A model generated the notes under the pieces. The model did not search any database, was not told where the DNA came from, and saw nothing but the letters and a program-made list of their open reading frames with translations. DNA of 17,423 bases from an uncultured Cellvibrio sp. (GTDB taxonomy: Bacteria; Pseudomonadota; Gammaproteobacteria; Pseudomonadales; Cellvibrionaceae). The position numbers and the translations under genes are program-made. Below, in pieces: positions 1 through 17,423 of this stretch; position 1 is the stretch's first letter, and every line of letters starts with the position of its first letter. The stretch is from NCBI GenBank assembly GCA_946886255.1, contig CAMPIG010000048.1, forward strand, positions 1 through 17,423, in the 5' to 3' direction.

Positions 1-3000
1 ATCCGTAATGTTGTCGTGGAGGGTGGTGTTTTTGTAGTCCACAATTTTCCATTCGATATCCAATGAATCCCAACACTGGACGTTCCAGCGGTAGGGTTTG
101 CTCGCATTGCTATATTCTGCATACGACGCTGCCAGACAGTTGGAGGAGCCGTAAGAAACAAAGAGAATTCCGCCCAGGATTGAACCGAGAGAGCTCATCA
201 CCAGACGAAAATCCAGATCACGTTTTTCGAATACGGTATCCAGGGCCATCAGAGCATAAGGAACAGTAATAAAGTCGCGCTCGGTCAATTCATGGGACGC
301 CTTGTTCACAGCGCGCACATGGCCGTTGGCAGAACCACCGGAGCAATGAATAACCCCATTGAACTTTCCGTATTGTTGTTCGGCTTTATCTACGAGTGTT
401 GCGAGTTCGACAAGGTCATTATCGTTAGGCATGGGTGCCAGAAAAATACCGCCCAATGCGGCCAGTTCCCTGAAACCGCCGATCTTCACGGAGATATCTT
501 CCTTGGGGTCATGGGTTTCCAGCCAGTTATCCCATTCCTGCTGCTGCGGCATAGAAACATCCCCCAGAACCAGCACGGTAGCTTGATACTCAGTTAACAG
601 CGTTTTGGAGACTTCCAGGCCAATGCCGACCAAGCCATCGTATACCAGATAAATACCACCTTTTTTTATCGGGCTGTACATGCCAGTTTGTGCATCAATT
701 TCAATGCGCTCATAGCTTTGAACCCAGCGGCGAGTGTTGCGAAAAGCGCAGATAATTTCTGCCTGATCAAAGCGAATTTCATTCTGTACCTGTTGCAGAA
801 GTTCGCTTTCCTCTTCAGAGTTTTTGGTTGGCAGGTACAGGTCAATTGCCTGGCAAGTGATATTCTGGAATTCTTGTTGCAGCACTTTGACCAGACCAAT
901 GATTGAGGCTTTCTCCGGGCGAATTTTCTCGACACCGGTGATGTCATGCATGTCACTGGTCAACACTTTAATAGACAAGTTGCTGTTGAATTTGTGGCGA
1001 TTCAGGGATTGCACCAAATTTAATACGCTGTAATAGCCTTTAAACTGCGTGCTGCGAAAGGTATCCAGATTTACCGATGAAGCTTCACGATGCCGGCTTT
1101 CCACCGTCCATAGGTGTAGCACCCGGCTGGGCAGCTCAAAGGAATCCTGCAAGTGCTGCACCAAAGAATCATATTCCGCGAAATTGCTAGGATTTAATTT
1201 GTAGCGGCCGTCGCCGAGTTTTTCGAAATTCTCGCCTTGTGTGACAACAACTACTGATTCCCCAAGGTCTTGTAAGGATTGAATCAATCGATTGCAAAAA
1301 TTATTGTTGTTGGAAAAAACCAGCCACTGCGCACCGGAGACCAGCTCCGCTTGAACAAGCGGGCGTAAAGTTTTGCGTTGCCAGGATTGCTCGTAAAACC
1401 ATTCGCCGGGTGACCCGGTCTTGTTATTGAGTTTGAATTCCTCAGAGCGTTCTGTTTGCTTGCGATCAAAGTCAATCCAGTAGCGCTGCATTTCAAACGG
1501 ATAGGTGGGCAAAGGAATACGTTTGCCCACCGCAATGTCTTCCTGAGACCAATCTATCGGTTTCTGATTGAGCCAGTTTCTGATGCTATCAGGCGTAGTG
1601 TTTGCAATCTGCGATGGAAATAAAAAGCTACTGAGGTTACCGGCGTGACAATAAGCATTATCCTCTCCGGCAGAAAGTTGATCCAGCTTAACGATGGCAT
1701 CGCCAATATTCTCAGCAACTATAACCGCTCGCTTCTCAAAGCTGTTGCGCCCGAACTGAAGGGTAAAGGCAATGTCTTCCAGCGCTACATTGTCCTGATT
1801 CAAACAACAGTTCGCGAGGTTGGATGCTTGTTGCGCGAGAGCGCTACTGGTTCGGGCGCTCAAAAACAACGCCACCGGACTATTGATGGACAGTTTTGGT
1901 GTGGCGCGCAACGGTGCCTCTTCCATAACGATATGGCAATTGGTACCGCCTACAGCGAGCGAACTCACGCCAAGGCGTCTGATATCCCGGGTCCAATCGG
2001 TTAACTTGTTGTTAACTTGAAACGGTGAATTGGCAAAATCAATTTTTGCGTTCGGTGTTTTAAAATTAATACTGGGTGGGATTTGTTTATGTTCCAGGGT
2101 GAGGACGCCCTTGATAAAAGACGCAATACCCGCCGCCGCACCGAGGTGGCCGATATTGGGCTTTACCGAACCGATCAGGCATTTACTATCGGACTGCTCA
2201 AACTCCTCAAACACATTAACCAACGCAGCAACTTCAATTGGGTCACCTAATTTGGTGCCGGTTCCATGTGCTTCAATGTAAGAAATATCACGCGGCTCGA
2301 GATCAGCTGACGCCAACGCTTGAATCACGACCTCCGCCTGTCCTTCAACACTGGGCGCGGTATAACCCACTTTTTCATTACCATCATTGTTGATCGCTGA
2401 GCCGCGAATGACGGCGCGAATATTGTCGTTATCGCGCAATGCATCTTCCAGACGTTTTAATAGCACAACACCACAGCCACTGCCCCATAAAGTGCCGGAA
2501 CCTTCATCATCGAAAGCGCGGCAATGCCCGTCGCGCGACAATATACTGTCTTCCACATACATATAACCGGCTTTATGTGGAACCATCACCGAGGCGCCAC
2601 CGGCAATGGCCATGTCACACTCGCCCAACAGCAAGCTCATACGCGCAAGATGCACAGCGACCAGAGATGATGAGCATGCGGTATTAACGTTGATGCTCGG
2701 TCCTTTCAAATTTAATTTATAAGACAGGTGAGTCGGCAAGTGATCCTTGTCATTGCTGATGAGAATTTGCTGCTCACCAGCGGTTCGATAAATCTCGTCA
2801 TTACCACACAACTTTGCATTGTAATATTGTGTTACCCCGGCAGATCCGTAGACCGCGACAGGAATATCGAGTGAATAAGGATTGTATCCTGCATCCTCAA
2901 ATACCTCCCAGCCACACATTAAAAACAATCGACGTTGTGGATCCAGAATTTTGGCTTCCCCAGGGCTGAACCCAAAAAAACCTGCGTCAAACATTTCTAC

Positions 3001-3225
3001 ATTATTTAATACTGGTGCGGAGCGTACGTAGTTGGGATGGTTGTACACATCTGTTGTAATACCGCTCTCGCGGAGATCCTGATCATTCAATATTTCAACG
3101 CTTTCTACGCCGTTTTTCAGGTTGTCCCAGAATTGGTCGATATTATCGGCACCGGGAAAACGACAGGACATGCCGATGACAGCGATAGCTGTAGAGTCGG
3201 ATGTTGTATGTGGTTCGTGTTTCAT
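1..3225 (-). CDS. AT-less polyketide synthase, KS-KR module (3' end outside window)
   Basis: This is the N-terminal 1075 residues of a modular PKS; the frame is open to base 1, so the C-terminus is missing. The start ATG at 3225 has an AGGG Shine-Dalgarno (3233-3236) seven bases upstream. Residues about 12-445 are a ketosynthase with the full triad: Cys184 in NTACSSS, His320 in EAHGTGT, His360 in PNIGH. A post-KS linker ends near YPFEMQRYW, and the sequence then passes directly to a ketoreductase: structural half from about residue 605 (LHLWTVE motif), catalytic half from about 856. No acyltransferase lies between, so extender units must come in trans. The KR keeps Ser1012, Tyr1025 and Asn1029 with the normal 13-residue Ser-Tyr spacing. 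Its cofactor loop reads VYDGLVGIG instead of TGGxGGIG, and the usual Lys position appears to be Tyr990, so activity is uncertain. A carrier domain presumably follows beyond the edge. The gene starts 57 nt after the FkbH-containing synthase and probably accepts its chain. Confidence 0.95.
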   Translation of the reverse strand, partial: MKHEPHTTSDSTAIAVIGMSCRFPGADNIDQFWDNLKNGVESVEILNDQDLRESGITTDVYNHPNYVRSAPVLNNVEMFDAGFFGFSPGEAKILDPQRRLFLMCGWEVFEDAGYNPYSLDIPVAVYGSAGVTQYYNAKLCGNDEIYRTAGEQQILISNDKDHLPTHLSYKLNLKGPSINVNTACSSSLVAVHLARMSLLLGECDMAIAGGASVMVPHKAGYMYVEDSILSRDGHCRAFDDEGSGTLWGSGCGVVLLKRLEDALRDNDNIRAVIRGSAINNDGNEKVGYTAPSVEGQAEVVIQALASADLEPRDISYIEAHGTGTKLGDPIEVAALVNVFEEFEQSDSKCLIGSVKPNIGHLGAAAGIASFIKGVLTLEHKQIPPSINFKTPNAKIDFANSPFQVNNKLTDWTRDIRRLGVSSLAVGGTNCHIVMEEAPLRATPKLSINSPVALFLSARTSSALAQQASNLANCCLNQDNVALEDIAFTLQFGRNSFEKRAVIVAENIGDAIVKLDQLSAGEDNAYCHAGNLSSFLFPSQIANTTPDSIRNWLNQKPIDWSQEDIAVGKRIPLPTYPFEMQRYWIDFDRKQTERSEEFKLNNKTGSPGEWFYEQSWQRKTLRPLVQAELVSGAQWLVFSNNNNFCNRLIQSLQDLGESVVVVTQGENFEKLGDGRYKLNPSNFAEYDSLVQHLQDSFELPSRVLHLWTVESRHREASSVNLDTFRSTQFKGYYSVLNLVQSLNRHKFNSNLSIKVLTSDMHDITGVEKIRPEKASIIGLVKVLQQEFQNITCQAIDLYLPTKNSEEESELLQQVQNEIRFDQAEIICAFRNTRRWVQSYERIEIDAQTGMYSPIKKGGIYLVYDGLVGIGLEVSKTLLTEYQATVLVLGDVSMPQQQEWDNWLETHDPKEDISVKIGGFRELAALGGIFLAPMPNDNDLVELATLVDKAEQQYGKFNGVIHCSGGSANGHVRAVNKASHELTERDFITVPYALMALDTVFEKRDLDFRLVMSSLGSILGGILFVSYGSSNCLAASYAEYSNASKPYRWNVQCWDSLDIEWKIVDYKNTTLHDNITD

Positions 3226-3282
3226 GACTTATCCCTATTTTTCATGTTTGGTCTGAAGGTTTTTGATAATGTGCAATCCTGA

Positions 3283-6200
3283 TTACGCGACTTGAAGGCG
3301 CTTGATCATCTGCCGTTGACGTTGAGCTCTTTCCCTGGCTTTACCCATCTTTCCTTTTTTCTCATTCGAGCCGGATAAATGTCTGGCCAGGGATGCAATG
3401 GAAGGAAATTGAAACAATGTGGTAATCGGAATATTTTTTTCCATCTTCTCGCTCACCCGGCTGGCCAGTTCAACAAGCTGCAATGATGTGCCGCCAAGAT
3501 CGAAGAAAGAGGTTTCGGTATCCAGCTGCTCCGTGCGTAAAACCTCGGCGTAAACCAGTGTCAGTATCGCTTCCAATTCATTGGCCGGAGTCGCTGTTGG
3601 TTGCGCTTTTGAAGGTGAGGTCTTTCCTTTGTATGCGGCCCGTAAGGCCTCCGAAATTTTGTCCAGGCTGTTAAGCTCTCGGGCAACGGAGGCCATAGCT
3701 CGAGGTGATTTGGTGTATTGATGGAGCCTGGATTGATCAGTGTTGTTACCTTCGATATCGTTCATCAAAGGCTGCTCTACACGGCTCGGCTCAAAACGTA
3801 AAGTAGCGCCCTGTGTACTGCTTAACGAAAAATAATTCTCCGTGTCATGCCAACGGGCCGCAGTAATAGACTGATAGAAGGTATGAAGGGGAACATTTTT
3901 TTCGCTGGCTCGGTATTCCAGATGCAATCTTTCAATACCGGCATCCAGCGCCCGGCGGGCAAGGGAGCTAAGCATATGATGCTCTACTCCCTTGCCTAAC
4001 ACGCGACAACTGAGCAGGAAACTGTCCAGGCGAATATGATCGGTGTTCATCTGATAGAAGAGCACACCTACCAAACCGTAATCGCCAAATCGATCGCGCA
4101 CGTTAACGGTTTTACATTCGTAATTGTCGAATTGTATTTTGTTACTGATCTCGCTGGCAGTATGACGACGGGTGGTGGCGTTAAACTGATTGGTGCGCTG
4201 CATCAGCTGCTCCACACGAGCAATTGAATCCTGATTTATATCGGCAATGTCTACGTGTAGTTCCAGCTTGGAAAGAAAATCCTCAAATGAAACTGATTGG
4301 GATTCTGCACGATGACGTTCGAGATTCTGCCGGTACATCGCTACACGTTTTTTATCTTCCGCTGTGACCGCATTGGTATCGAGATCCCAGATACTGTGGC
4401 AAAGCCGTTCGATTTCTTCCGCCACCTGTGGAAATTGAATAGTGAGCACCTGGGGTAATGCTGCTTCAACCTCCGCACATTCGACCGGATTGTCATCAAT
4501 GAAGATAAAGCTGTCCAAACCCAGTTTCAGTTCATGACTGAGTTGTAACAGGTTTTCGGATTTCGGTTGCCAGTTAATTTTCCAGGTAAGGAGATTTTCC
4601 AGCCCCAGAGGTATATCGGAGCGGCTGTTGAATACAGCAAGAACATCTTCCTCTACATTCTTACTGGCCAAACACAACAGTACCCCGCGTTTTGACTGTT
4701 CGATCAGGAAGTTGTGGAACTTCAAGCGCGCCTCATCAATCACGACACCTCGTGGTCCAACTTCGCCTACCACACCGTGCCAGAGTGTGTTATCGCAATC
4801 AAGCACGATAACTTTATAGGGTAAGGTGGCCACTGATCTGACTTTGCGTATTAACGACGTACCGAGCGCAGTAAAGTAATCGGGTTTGTAGGGCACATGC
4901 CCGGCGTTATCGGCAACTTCATCAAAAATGTGTGCGACCGGATACGTTTGGGTGATGGAATCCGCGTCGAGCAAGCGCACATTGGGTAATGCGGCTACCA
5001 CATCAGCCAGGTCTTGATTGAGCTGATGGTGAAGCGCAGCATTTTCTCCGTGAGCGGGTAGTACGGCGAGAATTAACGGATTACTCTGAATGCTGGCGCT
5101 GAAGCGTAACGCTGCTACAAATTCTGCAAAAATGGTGCGCTTACGTTGCTCCGCTGGGGTATGCGTATCCTTATCAAAACGTAGCCAATCATCATAGCGG
5201 ACCAGCACCAGATTCATGCCTTCGTGATTTTGGTTAAGTAACGAACCGGGATCAAGCAGCCCCTGGAAGACCTGGTTGTAGGGAGCAAACTCCAGTGAAA
5301 AATCCAGCTGTACTTTATCAAGCCAGAATTGAATGGAGTCCGTGAGCGGTTCAGCGGTAAAGGTAGCGGAAATGATCAGCCTCGGCTTCTGCTCCGTGCA
5401 TGAGGATGAAACCTTCGTCAACAAGGGCGTGGATACGAGATCATAGGAACGATGATCGGCTTCTGCATGGCCTATATCGCGCAGGATGAGCTGAAAAGAC
5501 TCCAGGATATTGGCGGCAGTCTGCGAGGTAAATAAATCCGGATTGAAATCCATAAAAACACGCAGACGATTACCGCGCACATCCACCGTGAACAGCATGT
5601 CAAAATCCAGGGTGATCAACGGAATATCCATGGGTGACAGGCGTAGGTCATTGTGCGTAGTTATTACGTCGTCACGCTCAATCATATTGAAGAGAATCTG
5701 AAACAGGGGATTGTGGTTTTTAGGTGACGGCACATTCAAATAGCTCACCACATCACCGTAGCCCACGCGTTGATGATCAAATACCTGGTAAATGTTGGTT
5801 TTGGTTTGTTCAATCAACTCATCAAGCGTGGCCTGAAGATTGATTTTGCTGCGCAGTATCAATGTGTTGGAGAGGAAGCCGACCATATTGCGAGTGTCGG
5901 GCAGATTACGATTGGCATTGGGTACGCCGATAAGGATGTCGTTCTGCTGGCAAATCCGAGCCATCAATAAATTAAAGACAGAAAATACCAGCGCAAAACG
6001 AGTTGCATTAAATCGTTTGGCTATTCTATCAAGCTGGGTAAAGTTCTCGCCGTCCAGTTCGAAGGAAACCTGCTCGGCACGAAAGGTTTGCTGAGCTTGC
6101 CGCGGAAAGTCGAAAGGCAGGTTCAGGCTAATGGGTGCATCCTTTAAGAAAGCTCGCCAAAAGTCGAGATCCTTTTGCTTCCGATTGTTGTCCTGACTAT

Positions 6201-9200
6201 GTAGCCAAACAAGATAGTCAGTAAACTGACCGCTCAATGGTAAGTGCTGATTATGATCCCTGCCGTCAGTGAGTGAACTGTAAATCTGAATCAAGTCCCT
6301 GGCGATAATATCGCAGGAACTTATATCAGCAATGATATGGTGTACAACAAGTGACAACACATAATCATCATCGCCGCTTTCAATCACCGTAACCTTAAGC
6401 AGAGGCCCCTTAGCAATATCAAATATCGTTCCGGCTGCGTGGTTAACAATGGAATAAGGGGAAGTATCCTTGGCTAACTGATGCCACTCCAGGCTGATGT
6501 ATTGATTATCAACAACTCTCTGAACAGGTTCTCCTTGTTGCAGGTCAAAGACAGTTCGCAAGGATGCATGACGTGCAATCACTGCATCAAGTGCGTTTTG
6601 TAATCGTTGCTTATCCAGTTTGCCGTTCAGGCGATAGGCTGCAGAAATGTTGTGACGCGTATTGTTCGGATACATTTGTGATAACACCCATAAGCGCAGC
6701 TGGTCTGAGCTGAGGGGAATGTCATCGTGACGTTGCAGCATCGGTATAACGAATTCTTCTGACTCTGTTGTCGCTATGGTTCCTGTTTCCTGTTCGATCA
6801 GGTTGCAAAGATCACTAAATGTATTGCATCGACTGAAAGTACCGAGAGTTATGTCGAGTGATAACTTCCGGTTAATCTCTGTGACAACCTGGGTGGTGGT
6901 AATAGATGTCCCGCCCAAAGCAATAAAATTATCGTTAGGGTGAATGTCCTCAACACTCAGGTACTTCAGCCAGATACTCTTGATCAGTGAATGGATATCT
7001 GACACCTGTTGAGTCGGCTCAATGACTGGCAAGGCTAGTGTTGATGGGGGAGCTACCAGTTTTTCCGCATCATCCGTATACCAATAGCGTTGTTGCGCAA
7101 AAGGGTAGTGGGGCAGGCTGGTCAGTTTTGCCTGCTGGTTTGTCGGTAAACGTTGCCAGGGAATTTGTGTTCCCTTAACCCAAAGCTTTGCAAGTTGGGT
7201 TAATCGAGCACCTTGTGCAAGTGCACCAATGAAGTCTTCTCCCTCAGGGCAATCGAGAAAATCTTCAAGGTCGCGGTCCTCCGATACTGCATTGAAAAAG
7301 CTTATCTGTCCGCCTTCGCCGGTATGTGAGAAGCGCAGCAGTTCTTCAATAAGTTCGCGTTTGTTATTTGCCACCACGGCAAGTCGATAAGCCATGGCTT
7401 CTCTGCCGGTCTGCATGGTATAGGCCAGGTCTTGTAAGCTGTCTTCAGCGCCGGGGTAAATGGAAGATGTCACATGGACTTTCTTTAACGTATCCAGTAA
7501 ATCACTCACTGAATATTGCAAGGCAATCTGGCGAGGTGTTATGGATATCTGCCAGGTTTCTTCGATGGCCTCCGTCACGGCCATGTAGTCACTCAGATGA
7601 AAACCTATGTCCGCGAGCAACGTGTGTTGATCGTGCAGCTGGATTCTTCCACCGGTTGCATTGGCTATCAGCTTTGTGAGGCCGGGTAGGGTAATGTCGG
7701 CATCGGGTAATGCCGCCTTTATCTCAATACTGTGCGCCAGATCGCTCGCATAGGTCATCAATCGCTCTTTTGAGCGCGCTGAAACGACAAAGACTGAGGG
7801 TTTATCCTCCGCTGAGCAGGTTGGTTTTATCGACGAGTATTCCTCCACTATCACGTGCGCATAAGCACCGCCGATACCAAACGAACTTATACCGGCCCGG
7901 CGCGGATATTTTGGGTTGGGTTGCCAATATTGATTGGTACGAGGGATAACAAAAGGTGTATTTTCCAAACTCACATAAGGATTCAGCTCGCGCAGATGCG
8001 GCATGGCCGGAATCGTTTTGTGTTTCATGGAAAGAATGACTTTCAACAAACCGACAATCCCTGCGGCGCCTTCTGCATGACCGATATGTGCTTTAGCGGT
8101 AGTAAGCGCGCAACGATTGTGGTGATGGTCCACATCCTTAAACGCAAGTTTCAATCCATTGACTTCGATGGGGTCGCCGAGGGATGTACCTGTGCCATGC
8201 GCTTCAATATAAGAAATACTGTCGGCGGGGATGTTGCCAGCCTTGAGAGCCTTTTCGATGACAGCTGCTTCCTGGGTTACATTGGGTGCGGTAAAAGATG
8301 CACTGTAACCGCCGTGGTTGACCGCCGCACTTTTGATAACGGCGTGGATTTGGTCACCGTCGCGCTCGGCTTTTGACAGAGGTTTTAATAGTACGGCCGC
8401 AACGGCTTCACCGGGCAGATAGCCATCGGCGCGGCTGTCGAATGGATAGCTGCCACCGGATTTGGACAACGCGCCGATGGTGCAGAAATAGCGAAAGTGT
8501 AATGGGCTTAACACCAGGTTAGTGCCAGCTACAAATGCCATATCGCATTCGCCGCTACGCAGTGCGCTCAATGCTGCATTAATGGCAACCAATGATGCTG
8601 AGCAGGCAGTATCCAGTGGTAAGCTCGGACCTTTCAGGTTCAGATAAAAAGATGGTCGGTTTGCCAGCATGGTAAGGGCATTACCAATACCGAAATAAGG
8701 GCTCATCTCGCCCAGGTGACGTACCAGTTCCAACTCGTAATCGTGGAAGCAAGCGCCCACGTACATACCGGTGTTGGTTCCGCGGATTTTATTTGCATAG
8801 CCGGCATCTTCGATTGTGTGATAGATAACCTCGAGAAGATGGCGCAGCTGGGGATCGAGGATGGCAGCCTCCTGGGGAGGAATATTAAAAAAAGCTGCAT
8901 CAAATTTATCAACATCATCAATGAAGCTGCCGCGAGTGCAGTATATAGCATCTGGCACATCCGAATTTTCTTCGCGCCATTTTTTGTATTCAAAATGGTC
9001 CTCGGGGATATCGCGAAACAAATCTGTTTGTTCGGCAAGGTTCTTCCAGAATTCGTCAAGATTCTTTGAACCAGGAAATTTTCCTGCCATGCCGATAACC
9101 GCTATATCTTCATTTACAGAGTTGTGAGAGCGGCATAAGGTGTTGATATGTTCTTGATCAGATGGCATTGCATTTGAAAACTGATCAAATATTTTATCCA

Positions 9201-9576
9201 GTGTGAAATCTGTAGCGGAAGTGTTGTTACGTTTTTCAACGGGCTTGGCGGACACCTTATCCTGGCTATCTTCAGTTGATGGCGACGGAGACGAAAAATT
9301 AATAGCGTCGGAATGATCTGTTTCCAGAAAATGGGCGAGATCAGTAATGCTTTGGTATTCAAAAAAAACGGTGGGCGGCAATTCGATCCCCAGATCATGT
9401 TTGATGTTATCCGCGATGGATACCAAACTGATGGAATCGACCCCCAGATCCATAATGTTGCGTGCTTCATCCGTGCGTTTTACCGCTTGTCCAGTAATTT
9501 TCTGGATGCTTGCTTTTAGATATTCAGTAATATTCTTTTGAGGCTTATCAAGGCCAACGTTGTTCGTCTTTTCCAT
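3283..9576 (-). CDS. Hybrid PKS/NRPS with embedded FkbH domain: ACP-KS-PCP-C-FkbH-PCP
   Basis: Numbering is from the upstream ATG at 9588. The ATG at 9576 (residue 5) is preferred because GGAG (9583-9586) lies six bases before it. Domains: ACP about 20-90 (GVDSI, Ser52); low-complexity linker 92-157; KS 158-585 (Cys329, His464, His504); post-KS linker holding an ACP-like insert at about 632-702; PCP 860-935 (LGGTS, Ser895); condensation domain about 946-1390 (HHIIAD, 1083-1088); FkbH domain about 1400-1940; PCP 2000-2072 (Ser2035); basic tail. The FkbH part shows the HAD motif DCDNT (Asp1597, Asp1599), ASKN (1641-1644), IDDNP (1697-1701), then FGDYGLVG and SCRVLGKGVE with Cys1861. FkbH proteins are known to dephosphorylate 1,3-bisphosphoglycerate and load glyceryl on a carrier protein. 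There is no A, AT, KR or TE domain. Inference: the C domain esterifies the polyketide onto the glyceryl hydroxyl. The N-terminal ACP probably completes the split module begun by the KS-DH protein at 14067-17423. Confidence 0.96.
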   Translation of the reverse strand: MEKTNNVGLDKPQKNITEYLKASIQKITGQAVKRTDEARNIMDLGVDSISLVSIADNIKHDLGIELPPTVFFEYQSITDLAHFLETDHSDAINFSSPSPSTEDSQDKVSAKPVEKRNNTSATDFTLDKIFDQFSNAMPSDQEHINTLCRSHNSVNEDIAVIGMAGKFPGSKNLDEFWKNLAEQTDLFRDIPEDHFEYKKWREENSDVPDAIYCTRGSFIDDVDKFDAAFFNIPPQEAAILDPQLRHLLEVIYHTIEDAGYANKIRGTNTGMYVGACFHDYELELVRHLGEMSPYFGIGNALTMLANRPSFYLNLKGPSLPLDTACSASLVAINAALSALRSGECDMAFVAGTNLVLSPLHFRYFCTIGALSKSGGSYPFDSRADGYLPGEAVAAVLLKPLSKAERDGDQIHAVIKSAAVNHGGYSASFTAPNVTQEAAVIEKALKAGNIPADSISYIEAHGTGTSLGDPIEVNGLKLAFKDVDHHHNRCALTTAKAHIGHAEGAAGIVGLLKVILSMKHKTIPAMPHLRELNPYVSLENTPFVIPRTNQYWQPNPKYPRRAGISSFGIGGAYAHVIVEEYSSIKPTCSAEDKPSVFVVSARSKERLMTYASDLAHSIEIKAALPDADITLPGLTKLIANATGGRIQLHDQHTLLADIGFHLSDYMAVTEAIEETWQISITPRQIALQYSVSDLLDTLKKVHVTSSIYPGAEDSLQDLAYTMQTGREAMAYRLAVVANNKRELIEELLRFSHTGEGGQISFFNAVSEDRDLEDFLDCPEGEDFIGALAQGARLTQLAKLWVKGTQIPWQRLPTNQQAKLTSLPHYPFAQQRYWYTDDAEKLVAPPSTLALPVIEPTQQVSDIHSLIKSIWLKYLSVEDIHPNDNFIALGGTSITTTQVVTEINRKLSLDITLGTFSRCNTFSDLCNLIEQETGTIATTESEEFVIPMLQRHDDIPLSSDQLRLWVLSQMYPNNTRHNISAAYRLNGKLDKQRLQNALDAVIARHASLRTVFDLQQGEPVQRVVDNQYISLEWHQLAKDTSPYSIVNHAAGTIFDIAKGPLLKVTVIESGDDDYVLSLVVHHIIADISSCDIIARDLIQIYSSLTDGRDHNQHLPLSGQFTDYLVWLHSQDNNRKQKDLDFWRAFLKDAPISLNLPFDFPRQAQQTFRAEQVSFELDGENFTQLDRIAKRFNATRFALVFSVFNLLMARICQQNDILIGVPNANRNLPDTRNMVGFLSNTLILRSKINLQATLDELIEQTKTNIYQVFDHQRVGYGDVVSYLNVPSPKNHNPLFQILFNMIERDDVITTHNDLRLSPMDIPLITLDFDMLFTVDVRGNRLRVFMDFNPDLFTSQTAANILESFQLILRDIGHAEADHRSYDLVSTPLLTKVSSSCTEQKPRLIISATFTAEPLTDSIQFWLDKVQLDFSLEFAPYNQVFQGLLDPGSLLNQNHEGMNLVLVRYDDWLRFDKDTHTPAEQRKRTIFAEFVAALRFSASIQSNPLILAVLPAHGENAALHHQLNQDLADVVAALPNVRLLDADSITQTYPVAHIFDEVADNAGHVPYKPDYFTALGTSLIRKVRSVATLPYKVIVLDCDNTLWHGVVGEVGPRGVVIDEARLKFHNFLIEQSKRGVLLCLASKNVEEDVLAVFNSRSDIPLGLENLLTWKINWQPKSENLLQLSHELKLGLDSFIFIDDNPVECAEVEAALPQVLTIQFPQVAEEIERLCHSIWDLDTNAVTAEDKKRVAMYRQNLERHRAESQSVSFEDFLSKLELHVDIADINQDSIARVEQLMQRTNQFNATTRRHTASEISNKIQFDNYECKTVNVRDRFGDYGLVGVLFYQMNTDHIRLDSFLLSCRVLGKGVEHHMLSSLARRALDAGIERLHLEYRASEKNVPLHTFYQSITAARWHDTENYFSLSSTQGATLRFEPSRVEQPLMNDIEGNNTDQSRLHQYTKSPRAMASVARELNSLDKISEALRAAYKGKTSPSKAQPTATPANELEAILTLVYAEVLRTEQLDTETSFFDLGGTSLQLVELASRVSEKMEKNIPITTLFQFPSIASLARHLSGSNEKKGKMGKARERAQRQRQMIKRLQVA

Positions 9577-9582
9577 AAATCG

Positions 9583-9586
9583 CTCC
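9583..9586 (-). promoter_or_regulatory. Shine-Dalgarno GGAG deciding the start of the hybrid synthase
   Basis: On the minus strand GGAG is followed by the six-base spacer CGATTT and then ATG at 9576-9574. The alternative in-frame ATG at 9588, four codons earlier, overlaps this GGAG and has no purine-rich motif of its own upstream. The downstream ATG is therefore the likelier start, which shortens the protein by four residues to 2097. Confidence 0.6.
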
Positions 9587-9603
9587 ATGTTTACATGTTA
9601 TGG

Positions 9604-9619
9604 ATTAATTCCAATTAAT
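9604..9619. repeat. 16-bp AT-rich palindrome in the gap before the hybrid synthase
   Basis: ATTAATT-CC-AATTAAT is a perfect 7-bp inverted repeat with a two-base centre, located 16-28 bases upstream of the two candidate starts of the hybrid synthase gene. The centre is too short for a stable RNA hairpin loop, so if it has a role a DNA-binding protein is more likely. An AT-rich palindrome of this size can also arise by chance. Confidence 0.25.
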
Positions 9620-9654
9620 GAGTCCAGTCTGTACAACGAATGCTGGTGGTATTC

Positions 9655-9672: not shown

Positions 9673-10839
9673 TTAAAAGTGCCAATCAAACCTTAAGCTG
9701 ACCATGCTGTCTTTCTCGTAAGCAAGCAAAGCGTGATTCGCTCTGGAAAATACAGAACCTTCTATCTCCAGCGTAAATTGCTTTCCCACTCGACGTGACA
9801 ACTCCATCTTTATGACTGTTTCCCCGGTTTCCTTGTCTACAATTGCACCCAATAAAGTTGTGGTGTCCTGTAGGTCGTTCAGTGCGATACGCGTGCCCAG
9901 GAAAATATCACGGCTAAATACATTGCTTGCTTCACCTCGTTCGTCATATATGTATTCCATCAACAATCCGATATCCGCATTGGTGTCAATCACTTGAAAG
10001 AAGGTGTATTCAAATCCGCCTACTGCCGCACGGTAATCTTCATAAAGATTCTGGTTTGCAATAGCTTCAAGTTTCCACAGCCAGGCGTCTGTCGTAAGTT
10101 GTAAATCAATACCGAACTGGCGGACCTTGGCATAAACCGGAATTAAATATTTACCGGTTTCATCGGCCTCCAGAAAGGGCTCCCGCCCGATGCCCTCGAA
10201 CCAATGAAGACCAAGGTCAATGTCACCGACATAATGGCTGTAGCGGATGGCATAATCCTGATGCGCATTTTTCTTTGTTCCTGAATAGCGGGCACTGTCA
10301 TTATCCACGGGTAGTGGTGTTCGATATCTGCCTTGGGCTGAGGGATAAACGCGTTCGCGAAATACCGGGAGCCAATAGAGTGACAGGTTTCCCCAATCAC
10401 GAATAAATGCAGCATTTACCATAGGCTGGCCGAGCTTTTCGTCTTGATAAATACTCTCAACCAGGTCCACCTGATTGATGATATTCACCAGATGCCAGGA
10501 TTCGGTTACTCCCCAATAAACAATATTCACTCCCGCATTCACGTCGACGAATTTGTTATCGTATGACCAATGAAGCTCGCGAATATCGATATGATTACGT
10601 TCTTCGTCATCACTGCCAGTTCGGCCGAATGCTTTAAATGAAAAGCTATGTTCGTCACCCCGCCATGTTATTTCAGGTTCCGTCACTATCTCCGGTGAGT
10701 TGTTACGCTTCTGGGTAATAAATTTTGGATCATCCCAAAAATAATTCTGCTGTAACCCCACGCTGCCAGAAAATTCTGCGTCAGCGAGCCCGTATATCGG
10801 CCACAACAACAGTGCTATGGCCAGAGTAGCTTTCTTCAT
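9673..10839 (-). CDS. Outer-membrane beta-barrel protein paired with RND exporter
   Basis: The 388-residue protein begins with a classical signal peptide: MKK, then a hydrophobic core (ATLAIALLL), with probable cleavage after LADA at about residue 21. The mature part has alternating short polar and aromatic strands, no long hydrophobic helix, and ends in SLRFDWHF. A C-terminal Phe in such a strand is the usual assembly signal of outer-membrane barrels. The segment YWGVTESWHLVNIINQVDLVE-like (about 107-127) resembles DUF1302-type barrels that occur beside MMPL/RND pumps and LolA-like proteins; this family link comes from memory of the motif, not a search. The gene starts 14 nt after the stop of the RND-LolA gene and has no good Shine-Dalgarno, so coupled translation is plausible. 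Probable role: outer-membrane step in exporting the cluster product or a lipid precursor. It could instead be a structural partner rather than a channel. Confidence 0.85.
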   Translation of the reverse strand: MKKATLAIALLLWPIYGLADAEFSGSVGLQQNYFWDDPKFITQKRNNSPEIVTEPEITWRGDEHSFSFKAFGRTGSDDEERNHIDIRELHWSYDNKFVDVNAGVNIVYWGVTESWHLVNIINQVDLVESIYQDEKLGQPMVNAAFIRDWGNLSLYWLPVFRERVYPSAQGRYRTPLPVDNDSARYSGTKKNAHQDYAIRYSHYVGDIDLGLHWFEGIGREPFLEADETGKYLIPVYAKVRQFGIDLQLTTDAWLWKLEAIANQNLYEDYRAAVGGFEYTFFQVIDTNADIGLLMEYIYDERGEASNVFSRDIFLGTRIALNDLQDTTTLLGAIVDKETGETVIKMELSRRVGKQFTLEIEGSVFSRANHALLAYEKDSMVSLRFDWHF

Positions 10840-10853: not shown

Positions 10854-11684
10854 CTATTGGATGCGTTTCAAACGGCTTTTATCGAAATCCTGCTCAGTTA
10901 ATCCGGTATTGAATACATAATCGCCATACAGGAGTGTTGTGCTTTTATTAGTCTGGTGATTAATCATATTCAATGTATGCGCTCTCCAATAGCCAGCGGA
11001 TCGCAGGTAGTTACTCAAGGTCAGTGTCTTTAGCAGATCGCCTTTTCGATCGTAGAACTCTACCTTGCGCACTTGATATACCTTTTGGTCGATCCACACT
11101 AACAGGTGTGAGTAACCGGAAAATTCATATTGCGGAAGTCTTTTTACAAGATCGCAGGTCATATCTTCGCAGGCTTCTTCTCGCACCCATTCGTGGGAAT
11201 ATTTATTCAGCTCCAGAGAAGTAAAATCTTCAAAAGCAAATTCTGACCCGACAAAGGGGCCGGATTTATTTTTCGATGAAATGCGTTTGATTCGCTTAAG
11301 GGACGGCAAGTAAAGCCATTGATCATCTGCTTCCAGTATCTTTGCATGAGATAGCAGCGCGGTACCGGAGATATCCTTGGGTTCGTTAAAGGTGACGATA
11401 CTTTTATCGCCGAGATCTTCATTGGCAACTTCCAATGTTTGTATATGTAGGTTGCGCGAGGCTTCTTCACCGGAGGCATTTTTTAACACCATCTTCAGCT
11501 CAACTTCGCTGCTGGTAAATCCTCTGTCTGTGCGATCAGAGCGCGCTGAAATTTCGTAGCCTTTGGTTTCATTCTCGGTGGTCTTTGCGACCGCACTATC
11601 TGATGTCGTCATCAGCAACGCACTAATGGCTATCACCAATACACCCAGCGTGCCCTCTGTTGCCATACCTTGGTTTTTAATCAT
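10854..11684 (-). other. Possible internal translation unit: LolA-like outer-membrane lipoprotein-sorting protein
   Basis: Met781 of the RND fusion opens a 276-codon segment that looks like a complete stand-alone gene. Its ATG at 11684 is preceded by AGAGG with a five-base spacer. The encoded N-terminus has Lys followed by a hydrophobic stretch (GTLGVLVIAISALLM) and an AxA cleavage site (AVA, then KT). The length agrees with free LolA-like sorting proteins. The reading frame is nevertheless continuous with the pump and no stop codon separates them. Both a fused protein and a separate secreted protein from the internal start are possible; sequence alone does not decide. Confidence 0.5.
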
Positions 11685-14024
11685 ATTTACCTCTGATGTC
11701 TTAACGTGTTTTCTGTCATCCAGAAGGACGAGCAATGCTGGCAATAGCAGCAGGTCGAGCAATAAAGCGAGCAGTATTGTGATGGTGGTCAATAACCCCA
11801 GATCTGCATTGATTTTGAACGTTGAGCCGGCCATGACAATAAAGCCAGCGATCAGGATCAATGTATTGATGACGATGGCTGGGCCAACATTGTGGAAAGC
11901 GTAAGCAACAGCTGCTCGGGCATCTAACATCTTTTCCCGGCGTGCCAGGTCATACTTGGCCAGGAAATGAACGGTGTCATCCACGACGATACCCAGGGAA
12001 ATAGCCGCAACGGCCGCAACGGAAAAGCCCACTGTACCGACTAACAATGACCAGATGCCGAAAGCGGCAAGGATGGGCAAGCCGTTGGGAATCAGACTCA
12101 ATAAACCTAATTTAAAGCTGCGCAGGGTGATGATAAGAATCAATGCAATAGCCAGGATCGCCATGATGGTTCCAGCGATCATGCTCTGCACATTGCGGTC
12201 AGCAATATAAGTAAACATCACCTGGGCACTGGTCGGCCTGGTTTCTTGCATGTATGCCGGGAAATTAGCCCCGATCCATGCTTGCGTGTTATCCAGGAAT
12301 GCTTTGGTTTGCGTTGTAGAGGTCTTGCCAAGGGTAACTGTCACACGGGTGGCGGATTTATCGATATTGATGCGATCATTCAAATCGAGACCGTAGGGGA
12401 GAGACAATTCATACAGCAACAGGTACTGGGCTGCTTCCGTATCATCGGCGGGTATCTTGTAGAATGTTTGGTTATCGCCATGAACATTTTTGTTCAACCG
12501 TTTGACGATATCGGTAATAGAAAAAACATGGACCACATTCGGCTGTTGACGCAGGAAATCGGTAAATTGCTCCAGCTTTGTCAGGTATTCATTACTGCTG
12601 ATAGCGCCGGATCCGGCGGCAGGAATAGAGTATTCAATGGGATACATACCAAACTTTGTTGTGGCTTGGTCGGTATCATTACGGAATTCTATTTTTTTGG
12701 AAAAATAATCGCTCCACTGGTCATCGAACTCAATACTGGGTACAAAGGCTACCAGGCCAAGACTCAGAATGATGCAAAAGCTGGCAAGCACTTTGGTATT
12801 GGCGTTCACAAAACTGGCTAGCTTGTCCATCCATCTTTCGCCGAAGCTATCACTCCCGGTTTGTTTGATGCGCATGGGTAGGATAGCCATCAATGCTGGC
12901 AACAAGGTGATGGACAATAACCAACCGGCCGCAATACCTGCAGAGGCCATATTGCCTAAATGCCAGTAGGGTGGTGCATCGGAGAAGTTCAAAGCCAAAA
13001 AGCCAACAATGGTGGTTAATGAAGTGACCGTGACGGGCATCAGGTTAATGCGCAGGGATTCCACAACAGCCTCATGACGCGACATGCCTTTGCGGATTGC
13101 TTTCTTGAATGACAACAGGATGTGGATGGAGTCAGCAATTGCCAGTGTAAGGATAATGATCGGTACCGAATTCGAAATGGGTGTAAGAGGCACACCTGTA
13201 AAACCACCCAATCCCATGCCGACGCCAATAGATAAATACACAACGGCAATCGTCATCAGCGTGCCAACAATTGAGCGTAACGCTAGCAATGTCAGTAACA
13301 CCAGTACGCCATACATGAGTGGGACCAACTGTATGGAGTCCATATACCCCGCTTCAGCAAAAGCGTTATTCAGCATAGAGAACCCGGTCAGCGATACCTT
13401 GATGTCAGGAAATTCCTGTTCGATAAGCGCTTTGTATTCGCGCGCTTTTGCTGCTGCGGTTGGTACTTCATACAGGCTTTGGCCGGGGAACTGCATGACC
13501 ACATTGATTGCCGTTGCTGAACTGTCGGCTTTGATCAATTGGTCTAGCAGCAGTGGTTCATTAATCGCTGTCTCTTTAATACGGTTGATATCTGTCGGGG
13601 AGAGATTTTCTGCATTGCTATAAAGATCCTCTACCGTCAGGTCATCATCTTCCGCGTAGGAGTTTTGAAAATTACTGATGGAATCTACCCGATTGGTAAA
13701 AGGAATAAGCCAGGCTTTCTCTGTCAGCATTTCTACCGCTTTCAGATTCTCATTGGTGAATACGTTTCCATTTTTGGGTTCCAGCACGAAGAAGAAGTTG
13801 TCGTTCTTGACATAGGTCTTCTGAAAATTTTCAAAGGCGGTCAATTCCGGATTGTCGCCAGAAAAAAATACGCGATAGTCTGTTGAAAAGCTGAGTAACT
13901 TTCCGCCTGTTCCGATGGCCAGCGCCGCTGCTACGGTAATGACCACAACGATGTAGCGGAACCGGATGACTGACTTAGCCAGACCGATTGCAAACCGGTC
14001 AACTACGTCAAAATATTTGGACAT
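10854..14024 (-). CDS. RND-family (MMPL-like) exporter fused to LolA-like protein
   Basis: The 1056-residue protein has a strong start: AGGGG (14031-14035) six bases before ATG. Residues 1-770 form a compact RND pump. TM1 is about 24-42, a periplasmic loop covers 43-230, TM2-6 span about 232-382, TM7 is about 411-430, a second loop covers 431-612, and TM8-12 span about 614-768. Charged membrane residues fit proton relay in the family: Asp298 and His301 in TM4; Asp682, Asp683 and His686 in TM10. Residues 781-1056 are a separate unit. They comprise a hydrophobic segment (about 791-806), AVA at 811-813 resembling a signal peptidase site, and a LolA-fold domain with WLYLPSLKRIKRISS, the hallmark of the outer-membrane lipoprotein-sorting protein family usually encoded beside such pumps. 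A Cys pair occurs in EACEDMTC. Inference: a proton-driven pump hands a lipid-like product to the LolA-type carrier and on to the barrel protein encoded next. The fused form would carry the LolA domain on a thirteenth membrane helix facing the periplasm. Confidence 0.93.
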   Translation of the reverse strand: MSKYFDVVDRFAIGLAKSVIRFRYIVVVITVAAALAIGTGGKLLSFSTDYRVFFSGDNPELTAFENFQKTYVKNDNFFFVLEPKNGNVFTNENLKAVEMLTEKAWLIPFTNRVDSISNFQNSYAEDDDLTVEDLYSNAENLSPTDINRIKETAINEPLLLDQLIKADSSATAINVVMQFPGQSLYEVPTAAAKAREYKALIEQEFPDIKVSLTGFSMLNNAFAEAGYMDSIQLVPLMYGVLVLLTLLALRSIVGTLMTIAVVYLSIGVGMGLGGFTGVPLTPISNSVPIIILTLAIADSIHILLSFKKAIRKGMSRHEAVVESLRINLMPVTVTSLTTIVGFLALNFSDAPPYWHLGNMASAGIAAGWLLSITLLPALMAILPMRIKQTGSDSFGERWMDKLASFVNANTKVLASFCIILSLGLVAFVPSIEFDDQWSDYFSKKIEFRNDTDQATTKFGMYPIEYSIPAAGSGAISSNEYLTKLEQFTDFLRQQPNVVHVFSITDIVKRLNKNVHGDNQTFYKIPADDTEAAQYLLLYELSLPYGLDLNDRINIDKSATRVTVTLGKTSTTQTKAFLDNTQAWIGANFPAYMQETRPTSAQVMFTYIADRNVQSMIAGTIMAILAIALILIITLRSFKLGLLSLIPNGLPILAAFGIWSLLVGTVGFSVAAVAAISLGIVVDDTVHFLAKYDLARREKMLDARAAVAYAFHNVGPAIVINTLILIAGFIVMAGSTFKINADLGLLTTITILLALLLDLLLLPALLVLLDDRKHVKTSEVNMIKNQGMATEGTLGVLVIAISALLMTTSDSAVAKTTENETKGYEISARSDRTDRGFTSSEVELKMVLKNASGEEASRNLHIQTLEVANEDLGDKSIVTFNEPKDISGTALLSHAKILEADDQWLYLPSLKRIKRISSKNKSGPFVGSEFAFEDFTSLELNKYSHEWVREEACEDMTCDLVKRLPQYEFSGYSHLLVWIDQKVYQVRKVEFYDRKGDLLKTLTLSNYLRSAGYWRAHTLNMINHQTNKSTTLLYGDYVFNTGLTEQDFDKSRLKRIQ
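11690..11694 (-). promoter_or_regulatory. Internal Shine-Dalgarno before the LolA-like segment
   Basis: AGAGG on the minus strand, five bases (TAAAT) before the in-frame ATG at 11684-11682, inside the RND fusion gene. Position and spacing are ideal for initiation at a gene start and would be unusual by chance exactly at the boundary of a signal-peptide-like segment. It suggests that two genes were joined by loss of a stop codon, or that internal initiation still happens. Confidence 0.55.
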
Positions 14025-14066: not shown

Positions 14067-17000
14067 TTACGCACGCTCCAGATGTTGCCTGGTTTTCTTC
14101 CAGGCGTTATTGCTTAAGATCCTTTTGCACACGATGCCAGATGCTTCCAGGTAGACTTCGCCTCGCTCGTCGCAGATAACGGCATCGCATTTCAGTATCT
14201 GTTCGTTAAGCAGTACGCGTTTTATCATGCAATAAGAGCGACTGGCCGGCGGCCGATGAAGAACAACTTCGTTAATACTGAAAGGAATGTAAACTGTGGC
14301 TGGCTCGTGGAGGAACGCGAATTTTGCACTGACAATCGCGGCATCCAGCCAGGCGGGATGTAGAGAATAGTGAGCGAAACTCTCTAACAGATCCTGGCTG
14401 ATGTTGATCATTGAAAGTGCCTGGTTTTCACCAACCAATATTTTTTCTACCGTGGTTAACGAACCTTGGTAATCGACACCCTGAGTGCGAAGCAATTGAT
14501 AGATGTCATGCTTGTCGTAAGCTGTAGTTAAGCTATGGGCCAGTGAATTAAGATCGAGATTCGAAGGATGTCGATCAACGACGGTAATATTGCCGCTGGA
14601 TGATTTCTCAATTCCGGTGCGGTCACATATCTGGTGGTTGCTCTCAAAAGCTATGCTGCTGGTGTTACTCTGTTGAAGACGAATAGAAACACGCGCATAT
14701 TCATCCGCGGTTAACGATAAGGGCGAGTAAAACACAATACGCTGAATGCAGTTGGCATGTTTAAACTCGGAGCGCGCGCGCGCAGCCTCCAACCCCATGC
14801 TCGGATAAGTTACTCCCAATAACACTTCATCATCAAAAACTTTGTGTTCTCTTAGATAAGCCTCGCCCTGGTGAAAATCTTCATACCACGCGGGCACCTC
14901 ATCAAGAGTCAATGGTGTAGCTGTATTGAGGGTCTGCGTTTGGCCAACCAAAGGCAGCTGGCGAGGTTCTATCCAGTGGCGCGTGCGGCTAAACGGATAA
15001 CCCGGAAGACTCATGCGATGTGGCTTTTTATCGCCATAGAGTCGGTGCCAATCAACAACCGCTCCTTGCAACCAGAGGTCACGTAAACTTCCAAGATCAT
15101 AACGTTCGAGCGCCCGCTCGATATCCGTAGGGGGTATCTCTATATTGTTGTGGTCCACAGCATGGTAAGACCCAACGGGACATTGACCTTTATCTGCAAA
15201 ATTGGCGAGTACTTTTACCAAGGTATCTTTATCATCGGAGATAACGGCCAGGCGATGATCAAAAGCATCTCGTCCTGCTTGCAAGGTGTAGGCTATATCC
15301 GCAAGGTTGGCACCAGATTGCGTGAGGGATCGGCTTAACGATTTGGCATAGGTGCGCAGGTTCTCTGCGGACTTTGCGGACAACAGGATAAGTACAGGTT
15401 TAATGTCTTTTTCAGTAACTAAGTCGGGTGCGCGATTTTCAGAATATTCCTCAAGAATAAGATGCGCGTTTACGCCGCCTGCTCCAAAGGCGTTGATCCC
15501 GGCGCGGCGCGGCAGGGGATTTCCAGTGGCGTCGGTCAATGTTTCCCAATCCCGGCGAGAGTTCAGCAGATAGAAAGGCGATTTTTTCAGATCAAGATAA
15601 GGATTGACATTGTTCAGGTGGATCAGCCCGGGCAGCTTTTTAAATTTAAGACTAAGCAGGACTTTTATGACACTGGCAATGCCGGATGCTGATTCCAGAT
15701 GGCCGATATTGGTTTTGATTGTGCCTATGCCACAGGCAGGATCAGAAACACCGGATTCTTGCGTAGTAAATTCATTGAAAGCTTTTTTCAATGCGCTGAT
15801 TTCAATTGGGTCGCCGAGTTTTGTTCCAGTGCCATGTGCTTCGATATAAGAGATCGTAGCGGGATGTACACGGGCATGCGAATAGGCTTCTTTAATTAAC
15901 TGATACTGGGCTTTCAGATTCGGTGCGGTCAGGGCATTCGCATGCCCGCCATGATTGGTATGGCTTCCTTTAATGACTGCAAGAATATTGTCTTTGTCTG
16001 CTATGGCGCGCGTGAGAGGTTTCAATACAATGGCTGCACCACCTTCGCCGCGCACAAAACCATCAGCGCTTTCATCAAATGATTTACAGCGACCGTCGGC
16101 ACTTAACATATGTGCTTGTTCAAACACCGAGCTGAGGCGAGGGCTCATCATAATGCTGATGCCGCCGACAATCGCTTGTGAGCAAACGCCTGCCTTTAAA
16201 TCCTGGACTGCCCGGTGAATCGCAACCAGTGAGCTGGAACACAAGGTATCTACCGGCTCACTGGGGCCGGAAAAATCGAATAAATAAGAGATACGATTAA
16301 CCAGAAATGCATGGTTGTTGCCAAAGCTCATCGCTGGTGAGATATCAACAGCGTTACTGTGCAAGTAATCCGCATAATCGCGATTCGATAAGCCGACATA
16401 AAGCCCCGTTCGGGTGCCGGAAAACGCGGATACTCGATAACCGGCATCTTCAATGGCATGCCAAACCAGTTGAATAAAGAGCCGTTGCTGTGGGTCCAGG
16501 AGAGCAGCTTCGGTAGCGTCGATACCGAAAAATTCTGCATCGAACTTATCGATATCTTTAACAAAGGAGCCCCAGCGCGATTGGGTCTTGCCACCGCCTT
16601 CGGAAGCTTTGCCTGACGCATCGCGCCATGACCAACGGTCCTCCGGGATTTCGCGAATAAAATCCTGCCCATTCCAAAGCTTTAGCCAAAATTCCTCCAG
16701 GTTTTCGCTGTCGGGCATCAGTGCTTGCATGCCAATAATGGCAATGTCTTCATCTGCGTAATTATTGTGTGTTTGCCCTGACGCTGCTGCCTCAACCTGC
16801 GAGGGCAGAATGGCCGGTGGGTAGGGAGCTTCGGCAATCTTCATAGCCGTCTCCCGGGAGGGGGTTGCTGAACACAGGTTCCCCAGGGATGCCCCAATCT
16901 CTGCCTGGTATTCTGCTAATAGGTAATCAGCAAATTCTGCAAGCGTGTGGTATTCAAAGAGCACAACGGGCGTGATGTCAGTCTTGTAGCTGGAATTGAT

Positions 17001-17423
17001 TGCAGAAACAAACTCCGTATTTGATATGGAATCAAAACCATAGTGGGTCAGATGGGTGTTATCAGAAATCTTACCTGCAGGAACTTTGGTGATGGATGAT
17101 GCAAGGTCTTTCAGATTGGCTAGCAGAAGATCACGTAGCTGTTGTGGACTAAGGGTATTCGCGGCAGGTTGTACATCGATTGCTGGCGGTGTGCCGGTCG
17201 ACGCAAGTTCAGCGAAATAGCCGCTTATCGTGTCTGCATATTCATTGGCAATATGTCTTGCAACTTCGCGCAATGTACTGTGTTCAAAGAAGATAATCGG
17301 CGTCAGGTCTGTACCAAAGGTATTATTAATACTGGTTGCTAACTCGGTATTTGCAATAGAGTCAAAGCCTAATTCGGCAAGGACTGAGTCGCCATGGATA
17401 CTTGCCGAATTGAGTTTAAGGAT
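14067..17423 (-). CDS. AT-less polyketide synthase, tandem ACP-KS-DH (5' end outside window)
   Basis: This is the C-terminal 1118 residues of a PKS; the frame is open to base 17423. A TTG at 17273 could be taken for a start, but the in-frame sequence before it encodes the rest of an ACP, so the gene continues upstream. In window numbering: first ACP to about residue 54 (GFDSI, Ser22); second ACP about 95-172 (GFDSI, Ser132); KS about 222-662 with Cys395 in DTLCSSS, His530 in EAHGTGT and His575 in TNIGH; post-KS linker ending YPFSRTRHW; dehydratase-type double hot-dog about 845-1100. The DH keeps His860 and Asp1027 but its motifs differ from the standard ones. The protein stops soon after the DH, with no carrier, KR or AT. 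The matching ACP is probably the one that opens the hybrid synthase at 3283-9576. The stop lies 42 nt before the RND gene. The DTLCSSS form and the lack of an AT fit trans-AT synthases. Confidence 0.95.
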   Translation of the reverse strand: MLKLNSASIHGDSVLAELGFDSIANTELATSINNTFGTDLTPIIFFEHSTLREVARHIANEYADTISGYFAELASTGTPPAIDVQPAANTLSPQQLRDLLLANLKDLASSITKVPAGKISDNTHLTHYGFDSISNTEFVSAINSSYKTDITPVVLFEYHTLAEFADYLLAEYQAEIGASLGNLCSATPSRETAMKIAEAPYPPAILPSQVEAAASGQTHNNYADEDIAIIGMQALMPDSENLEEFWLKLWNGQDFIREIPEDRWSWRDASGKASEGGGKTQSRWGSFVKDIDKFDAEFFGIDATEAALLDPQQRLFIQLVWHAIEDAGYRVSAFSGTRTGLYVGLSNRDYADYLHSNAVDISPAMSFGNNHAFLVNRISYLFDFSGPSEPVDTLCSSSLVAIHRAVQDLKAGVCSQAIVGGISIMMSPRLSSVFEQAHMLSADGRCKSFDESADGFVRGEGGAAIVLKPLTRAIADKDNILAVIKGSHTNHGGHANALTAPNLKAQYQLIKEAYSHARVHPATISYIEAHGTGTKLGDPIEISALKKAFNEFTTQESGVSDPACGIGTIKTNIGHLESASGIASVIKVLLSLKFKKLPGLIHLNNVNPYLDLKKSPFYLLNSRRDWETLTDATGNPLPRRAGINAFGAGGVNAHLILEEYSENRAPDLVTEKDIKPVLILLSAKSAENLRTYAKSLSRSLTQSGANLADIAYTLQAGRDAFDHRLAVISDDKDTLVKVLANFADKGQCPVGSYHAVDHNNIEIPPTDIERALERYDLGSLRDLWLQGAVVDWHRLYGDKKPHRMSLPGYPFSRTRHWIEPRQLPLVGQTQTLNTATPLTLDEVPAWYEDFHQGEAYLREHKVFDDEVLLGVTYPSMGLEAARARSEFKHANCIQRIVFYSPLSLTADEYARVSIRLQQSNTSSIAFESNHQICDRTGIEKSSSGNITVVDRHPSNLDLNSLAHSLTTAYDKHDIYQLLRTQGVDYQGSLTTVEKILVGENQALSMINISQDLLESFAHYSLHPAWLDAAIVSAKFAFLHEPATVYIPFSINEVVLHRPPASRSYCMIKRVLLNEQILKCDAVICDERGEVYLEASGIVCKRILSNNAWKKTRQHLERA

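Follow-up and report, generated by a model that had tools for sequence, protein, structure and literature searches.

The window analysed here is a stretch of 17,423 nucleotides from an uncultured Cellvibrio sp. (assembly GCA_946886255.1, contig CAMPIG010000048.1, positions 1 to 17,423 of the forward strand), in which open reading frame (ORF) calls and Pfam matches delineate five genes, all on the minus strand. The one considered in this work, ORF2, encodes an assembly-line protein in which a ketosynthase (KS) and a carrier are followed by a condensation (C) domain, an FkbH region and a second carrier. An earlier note on this DNA had read its segment 3373-6753 as an internal C-FkbH-PCP (peptidyl carrier protein) module that forms a glyceryl ester in mid-assembly line. 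In the explanation that we consider clearly the most probable, and with good confidence, FkbH would load glycerate, the C domain would esterify it with a KS-derived chain, and the product would be handed to the KS of the next protein, ORF1 (KS4). The features of both proteins are as follows (ACP, acyl carrier protein; A, adenylation; KR, ketoreductase).

3283-9588, minus strand: ORF2, ACP-KS-PCP-C-NEX-FkbH(HAD+GNAT)-PCP, without A domain
9319..9531, minus strand: N-terminal ACP (Ser52, DLGVDS; PF00550 stretch and motif)
7729..9114, minus strand: KS3, with intact Cys-His-His (DTACSAS, EAHGTGT, KAHIGH; Pfam, KS at residues 160-532, and motifs)
6793..6993, minus strand: donor carrier, residues 866-932, LGGTS with Ser895 (PF00550 stretch and motif)
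5431..6726, minus strand: Condensation domain, residues 955-1386, HHIIADI (PF00668, 288.8 bits)
4825..5391, minus strand: NEX, the FkbH N-terminal extension, residues 1400-1588, with an SGNH/GDSL-like fold
3862..4824, minus strand: FkbH-type HAD phosphatase and GNAT-like glyceryl transferase, residues 1589-1909 (DCDNTLW, FIDDN, SCRVLGKGVE)
3376..3561, minus strand: acceptor carrier, residues 2010-2071, Ser2035 in LGGTS 2031-2035 (PF00550, the best of three PP-binding stretches)
3286..3375, minus strand: C-terminal basic tail (KARERAQRQRQ...), its end partly conserved in the full-length alignment; possibly a docking helix to ORF1
1..3225, minus strand: ORF1, truncated by the window end, KS4 and then a KR without catalytic Lys; an ACP follows in a related cluster (Pfam, KR alignments and KS tree)

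Counted from its first ATG, ORF2 comprises 2101 residues; 2097 is the likelier size, because a GGAG sits six bases 5' of the second ATG. The elements named in the earlier note, that is, the C domain (HHIIAD, residues 1083-1088), a full FkbH region and an LGGTS carrier, without an A domain, were all recovered by Pfam and NCBIfam matches and by the positions of their motifs, and so was the order that places FkbH after ACP, KS, PCP and C. The range 3373-6753 indeed runs from C to PCP, and Ser2035 is the carrier Ser. No AMP-binding family appears in the Pfam table of ORF2; 25 of its 36 NCBIfam matches were listed. A part left unnamed in that note, some 190 residues between C and HAD, corresponds to NEX. 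The FkbH assignment is strong (TIGR01686 at residues 1591-1909, with 299.7 bits vs a curated cut-off of 146.65 in NCBIfam), and both the catalytic motifs of the HAD part (DxD-T, S, DD) and the GNAT-like C-terminal part are present. Motifs and score alike support the proposed loading of the acceptor carrier, and glyceryl transfer to Ser2035 is very likely, with glycerate as the presumed substrate. In a sequence search of solved structures, NEX-FkbH yielded a single match, 3slr, and the first structure model matched mostly structures containing C domains. The motif HHIIADI is the canonical HHxxxDG with Ile for Gly, and the catalytic HHxxxD is kept. Ester formation by this C domain is likely, and we infer, in agreement with the earlier proposal, an ester as the only sensible bond. 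It was also observed that a carrier-like segment is inserted in the KS3 linker (window 7459-7731, ORF2 residues 620-710): HHalign gave it a probability of 96.9 against the ACP of the same family, 93.5 against the donor carrier, 49.6 against the acceptor carrier and 0.09 against two control blocks. On visual inspection, all ten aligned proteins lack the Ser of the carrier motif.

The layout of ORF2 is, judging from its relatives, more than chance, because nine further database proteins, 39-80% identical, align over its full length. The complete domain order was recovered by a domain script in nine of these ten ORF2-type proteins, and in P0010 the N-terminal ACP, overlooked by the script, is visible in the alignment. 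One close relative is a protein of Cellvibrio sp. ARAG 10.3, a named strain in which the product could be sought. A wider protein search with residues 940-2101 as query returned at least 3088 proteins at E <= 1e-30 from a capped set of 7989 scored candidates, and the best 120 were listed; having been selected by a C-FkbH-PCP query, this list shows existence in number, not frequency. It contains 115 C domains directly ahead of NEX, preceded by A-T (T, carrier) in 69 cases, KS-T in 21, HAD-T in two, a lone T in one and the protein start in 22, while the HAD part is followed by T-C (40), T-KS (5), a terminal T (59) or nothing (11). The notion that an internal C-FkbH-PCP is exceptional in itself was rejected, as 93 of the 115 units have domains before them; the earlier statement that FkbH domains are best known as starters or free enzymes must be tempered in the same sense. 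The D-x-D-x-T motif is found in 120 of the 121 HAD domains of these matches. The D-I ending of the C motif (window 6322-6342) is shared by all ten T-KS-T-C-FkbH proteins (10 of the 115 FkbH-linked C domains) and by none of the 104 others with a readable motif, one more having none.

Genome searches gave a complementary picture. The NEX-FkbH part was matched in 15 of the 144 genomes of one family at E <= 1e-20, free-standing FkbH included, and a search of 390 genomes of an order found 92 with a match, the best places being mostly KS-only. Genome contigs scanned with the full-length ORF2-type alignment provided 159 relatives, the best 80 of which make up 76 loci; NEX or HAD was detected by script in three of these (L004, L008 and L037), and L001 plus six loci came from other scans. 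A scan of viral contigs found no relative. In one further locus (L146 1-16000, genome G430) a C domain ends one ORF and NEX-FkbH lies in the next, with KS-KR-T-KS behind it; this may be the C-FkbH module in split form.

The remaining genes of the window are the following (PKS, polyketide synthase; DH, dehydratase; identities refer to the related genome G417, described below).

14067..17423, minus strand: ORF3, truncated by the window end, ACP-ACP-KS2-DH-like, the final part of the upstream PKS (Pfam)
10854..14024, minus strand: RND/MMPL transporter carrying a fused LolA-like domain (PF03176, 116.8 bits; PF17131, 190.8 bits; 90% to G417)
9673..10839, minus strand: probable outer-membrane protein (74% to G417)

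The latter had no Pfam or NCBIfam match. The location of the transporter and of this protein within the PKS operon (window 9673-14024) suggests a lipid-like product destined for the outer membrane; genes of these kinds also adjoin the C-FkbH line of G435 discussed below. In ORF3, which is 71% identical to the last third of a 3753-residue PKS of G417 across 1140 columns, a tandem pair of carriers lies ahead of KS2 (window 17025-17372), and the DH-like domain of the KS2 module reads EHKVFDDEVLLGV (window 14811-14849), lacking the G and P that are usual in HxxxGxxxxP; it could be an isomerase or an idle domain.

An intact relative of this cluster was found in genome G417, the only one with a match at E <= 1e-60 among 21 genomes of its genus, whose ORF2 is 75% identical to that of the window and has the same length and start as P0003. 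The genes are ordered as LysR regulator, the 3753-residue PKS, RND-LolA, outer-membrane protein, ORF2, KS-KR-ACP, a protein with two acyltransferase (AT) stretches, a metallo-beta-lactamase-fold hydrolase and an FMN reductase. The large PKS contains Formyl_trans_N, AMP-binding, two KS, two DH-type, one KR and three carrier stretches, and it ends in KS-DH. Because it does so without a carrier and ORF2 opens with an ACP, the two ends probably read as one split KS2-DH / ACP module. The line would thus run from a formyltransferase-A starter through two KS modules and ORF2 to KS-KR-ACP, served by the ATs. Its A domain presumably is glycine-specific, with a code (DILQLGMIW) read by eye against Stachelhaus positions. 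Loading of formyl-glycine by such formyltransferase-A-PCP starts has been proposed for phthoxazolin and relatives (PMC5764310). No Acyl_transf_1 was matched by Pfam in the three PKS proteins of the window, and two such stretches form the discrete protein of G417; on these domain contents, the line is of the trans-AT type, with KS modules devoid of an integral AT and a discrete AT, seen in G417, in the cluster. Pfam likewise gave no thioesterase (TE) family match in the five window proteins or in six G417 proteins scanned. As a separate observation, the KS-KR gene of G417 (L139 8290-11987) is broken into two ORFs near the KR start by an apparent frameshift, be it a sequencing error or a real break.

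The chain reaching the C domain was proposed in the earlier note to be a polyketide coming from a KS module, and both the sequence and the intact G417 cluster support this. A check of the gap between KS3 and the donor carrier of ORF2 found no KR, and the same holds for the 21 KS-T-C-NEX units among the best 120 matches, none of which has a KR between KS and carrier. Their gaps measure 195-328 residues, except in P0038 (625 residues), for which methyltransferase families are among the Pfam domains listed, and in the KS tree the 21 units belong to few clades. Since the KS3 module lacks a KR, a beta-ketoacyl donor is expected, provided that the KS elongates.

Hand-over to KS4 is likely. ORF1 and ORF2 are neighbours in the window as well as in G417. 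Comparison of the ten ORF2-type proteins with the 27 homologues of the second half of ORF1 (E <= 1e-10) showed that in seven cases the longest contig is equal in size to that of an ORF1 homologue (653730, 32884, 125262, 16527, 53958, 27582 and 20105). A tree built from 80 KS domains places KS1 to KS3 among trans-AT KS domains, and the sister of the KS4 family comes from the cis-AT line G435, where this KS stands after C-NEX-FkbH-T (node 0.936). These placements indicate a cis-AT-like source as the probable origin of KS4; a specificity of KS4 for glyceryl esters can be inferred from the same tree less firmly.

The KR that follows KS4 (window 139-642) deserves separate comment. The Rossmann motif YDG(L/F)VGIG is found in all 12 members of its family (P0121-P0132), that of the window (P0121) being YDGLVGIG; Ser and Tyr are retained in all 12, and in every one the site of the catalytic Lys is occupied by another residue. 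The Lys is present in 12 of the 15 more distant KRs listed (P0133-P0147). Neither TGxxxGxG nor the catalytic Lys, which together mark an active ketoreductase, is therefore found in this KR. As both the Lys and part of the cofactor motif are missing, the domain is judged non-reducing under the usual rules, as is that of G435 (see below): the KR of ORF1 is likely inactive, leaving a ketone after KS4, and simple reduction of the new ketone by the next KR was rejected. The earlier idea of a hand-over to a KS-KR protein is supported by adjacency and co-occurrence, but ORF1 probably does not act as a reducing module. The KR after C-FkbH-T of G435 also lacks the Lys, but retains TGGFLGLG. The sequence of the ORF1 KR is well conserved, although the domain is expected not to reduce. 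This conserved Lys-less KR downstream of C-FkbH-PCP constitutes a concrete feature with a testable role.

These elements can be integrated in the following model. The upstream PKS and KS3 would build the chain and deliver it to Ser895 of the donor PCP, most likely in the form of a beta-ketoacyl thioester. FkbH would take the glyceryl group from 1,3-bisphosphoglycerate, a product of sugar breakdown, dephosphorylate it and place it on Ser2035 of the acceptor PCP. The C domain would then use a glycerate hydroxyl as the nucleophile to form the ester, and the acylated glycerate would pass to KS4 of ORF1, where a C2 unit would be added at glycerate C1, the resulting ketone probably being left by the inactive KR. 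Export of the product is the probable role of the RND-LolA-OMP set. A further step, which is tentative and which we would rather doubt, is that the active methylene of the beta-ketoacyl ester closes onto the ketone made by KS4 at C1 in a Knoevenagel reaction, to give an ACP-bound 3-acyl-5-(hydroxymethyl)butenolide or a related fused lactone.

Several facts weigh against this model or parts of it. The equal-sized contigs are an indirect sign of ORF1/ORF2 pairing, and P0005 (Marinagarivorans) has no ORF1 partner among the ORF1 homologues listed. Just one of the 11 other KS domains that follow FkbH is sister to the KS4 family, the other ten being scattered over both halves of the tree, and P0142, which is not known to follow FkbH, joins the KS4 family next (node 0.987). 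The C-FkbH of G435 is only 29% identical to ORF2, so the cassette did not descend as a single block. Although its triad is intact, KS3 could be a KS that does not elongate. Finally, the donor of L004 passes a KR (KS-DH-KR-T-C-NEX-FkbH-T), and foxicin donor modules, as described in PMC5318452, carry DH-KR; in view of these two cases, the idea that every donor is unreduced was rejected.

The KR-free donor module is also compatible with direct release, in which the active methylene would attack the glyceryl thioester in a Dieckmann reaction to yield a 3-acyl tetronate, KS4 acting elsewhere or not at all. Glyceryl carriers do yield tetronates in other pathways, and the lack of a thioesterase match noted above would fit; however, ORF1 is the next gene after ORF2 here as in G417, both protein types co-occur, the KS4 family has as its sister a KS located behind C-FkbH-PCP, and no FabH-like family was matched in the six G417 proteins scanned, so that this route appears unlikely. 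It is quite improbable that C-FkbH-PCP is an idle relic skipped by the chain. A published suggestion of such a fate concerns the oocydin PKS OocJ, whose first module contains FkbH, and the exchange of the HHxxxDG Gly for Ile throughout the ORF2 family, which also weighs against the model above, would agree with it, but the catalytic motifs are retained and the module is conserved in ten proteins with identity down to 39%. Oxidation of the glyceryl group to a hydroxy- or methoxymalonyl extender, a known fate of glyceryl-ACP, would make the C domain fused upstream of FkbH hard to accommodate, and the dehydrogenase and O-methyltransferase pair was not found in the six G417 proteins scanned; we regard this as very unlikely. 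Loading, esterification and transfer to KS4 thus form the preferred sequence of events.

Esterification of glycerate by C-FkbH-PCP is known from vioprolide, as cited in PMC8949500 and PMC10099666. ORF2 has the vioprolide-type order C-(NEX)-FkbH-PCP without A domain, which VioA (FAAL-ACP-C-FkbH-PCP, FAAL being a fatty acyl-AMP ligase) shares with corramycin ComK. In VioA, as far as those sources go, the donor is a fatty acid from the FAAL at the line start and peptide extension follows, whereas in ORF2 the donor comes from a KS and another KS follows; the module is preceded by KS-PCP, not directly by FAAL-ACP, and would thus act like that of VioA without being the starter variant. The earlier note had drawn this contrast, and a KS-PCP ahead of the module and a KS-KR after it are both in the window, but a polyketide protein ending in C-FkbH had already been published. 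In foxicin FoxBII-FoxBIII, ACP-(KS-AT-DH-KR-ACP)x2-C-FkbH / PCP-TE, a polyketide protein feeds C-FkbH and PCP, and glyceryl incorporation was proposed (PMC5318452). That line is cis-AT, has KR and DH in its donor modules and ends in a TE, unlike that of the window, with no integral AT, a KS-only donor module and a further KS.

A polyketide donor is therefore already known, as a proposal for C-FkbH in the foxicin work just cited, and as an experiment for C-NEX-T in BurF of malleicyprol, whose C domain esterifies a fatty acid-polyketide chain with a carrier-bound hydroxy acid. BurF contains NEX between C and T, but no HAD/GNAT, and other proteins load its hydroxy acid; the line terminates in a reductase, and the reduced ester undergoes Knoevenagel-type closure to a butenolide. 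L001 (Niallia) and L008 (a Verrucomicrobia metagenome-assembled genome) show KS, carrier and C-NEX-FkbH-T followed by a thioester-reductase-type domain, as in BurF. The position of this reductase is taken by a ketosynthase in the window, and no thioester reductase was found in ORF2, in the windowed part of ORF1 or in the KR-ACP piece of G417. If correct, the doubtful butenolide closure would represent the malleicyprol logic with a ketosynthase replacing the reductase.

The G435 line, from a genome of the same family as G417, has FAAL-like-T-C-A-T / KS-AT-T / C-NEX-FkbH-T / KS-AT-KR-T / TE / MMPL / LolA-like / DUF1302 in a row, the FAAL resting on a Pfam match. Like the window, it combines a KR-free KS, C-FkbH-T, a KS with a Lys-less KR, and MMPL, LolA-like and outer-membrane-type genes; unlike it, it is cis-AT, with a lipopeptide-type starter and a TE. 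Its best protein matches to the window proteins are 23-48% identical, and the outer-membrane proteins of both show no match at E 1e-5. Should this butenolide closure hold, such a heterocycle cassette would serve trans-AT and cis-AT lines alike, with products sent to the outer membrane via MMPL-LolA systems.

A literature search, beyond which most subscription papers lie, found no internal trans-AT line KS-PCP -> C-FkbH-PCP -> KS with a known product. With respect to the systems above, what is new is the order of the G417 cluster, the ORF1/ORF2-type pairing, the Lys-less KR and the KR-free donors. A simple rule may follow, namely that KS-PCP-C-NEX-FkbH-PCP units may deliver beta-ketoacyl glycerate esters, and a single line would join three known ideas: glycerate loading by FkbH, ester-forming C domains and extension by a KS.

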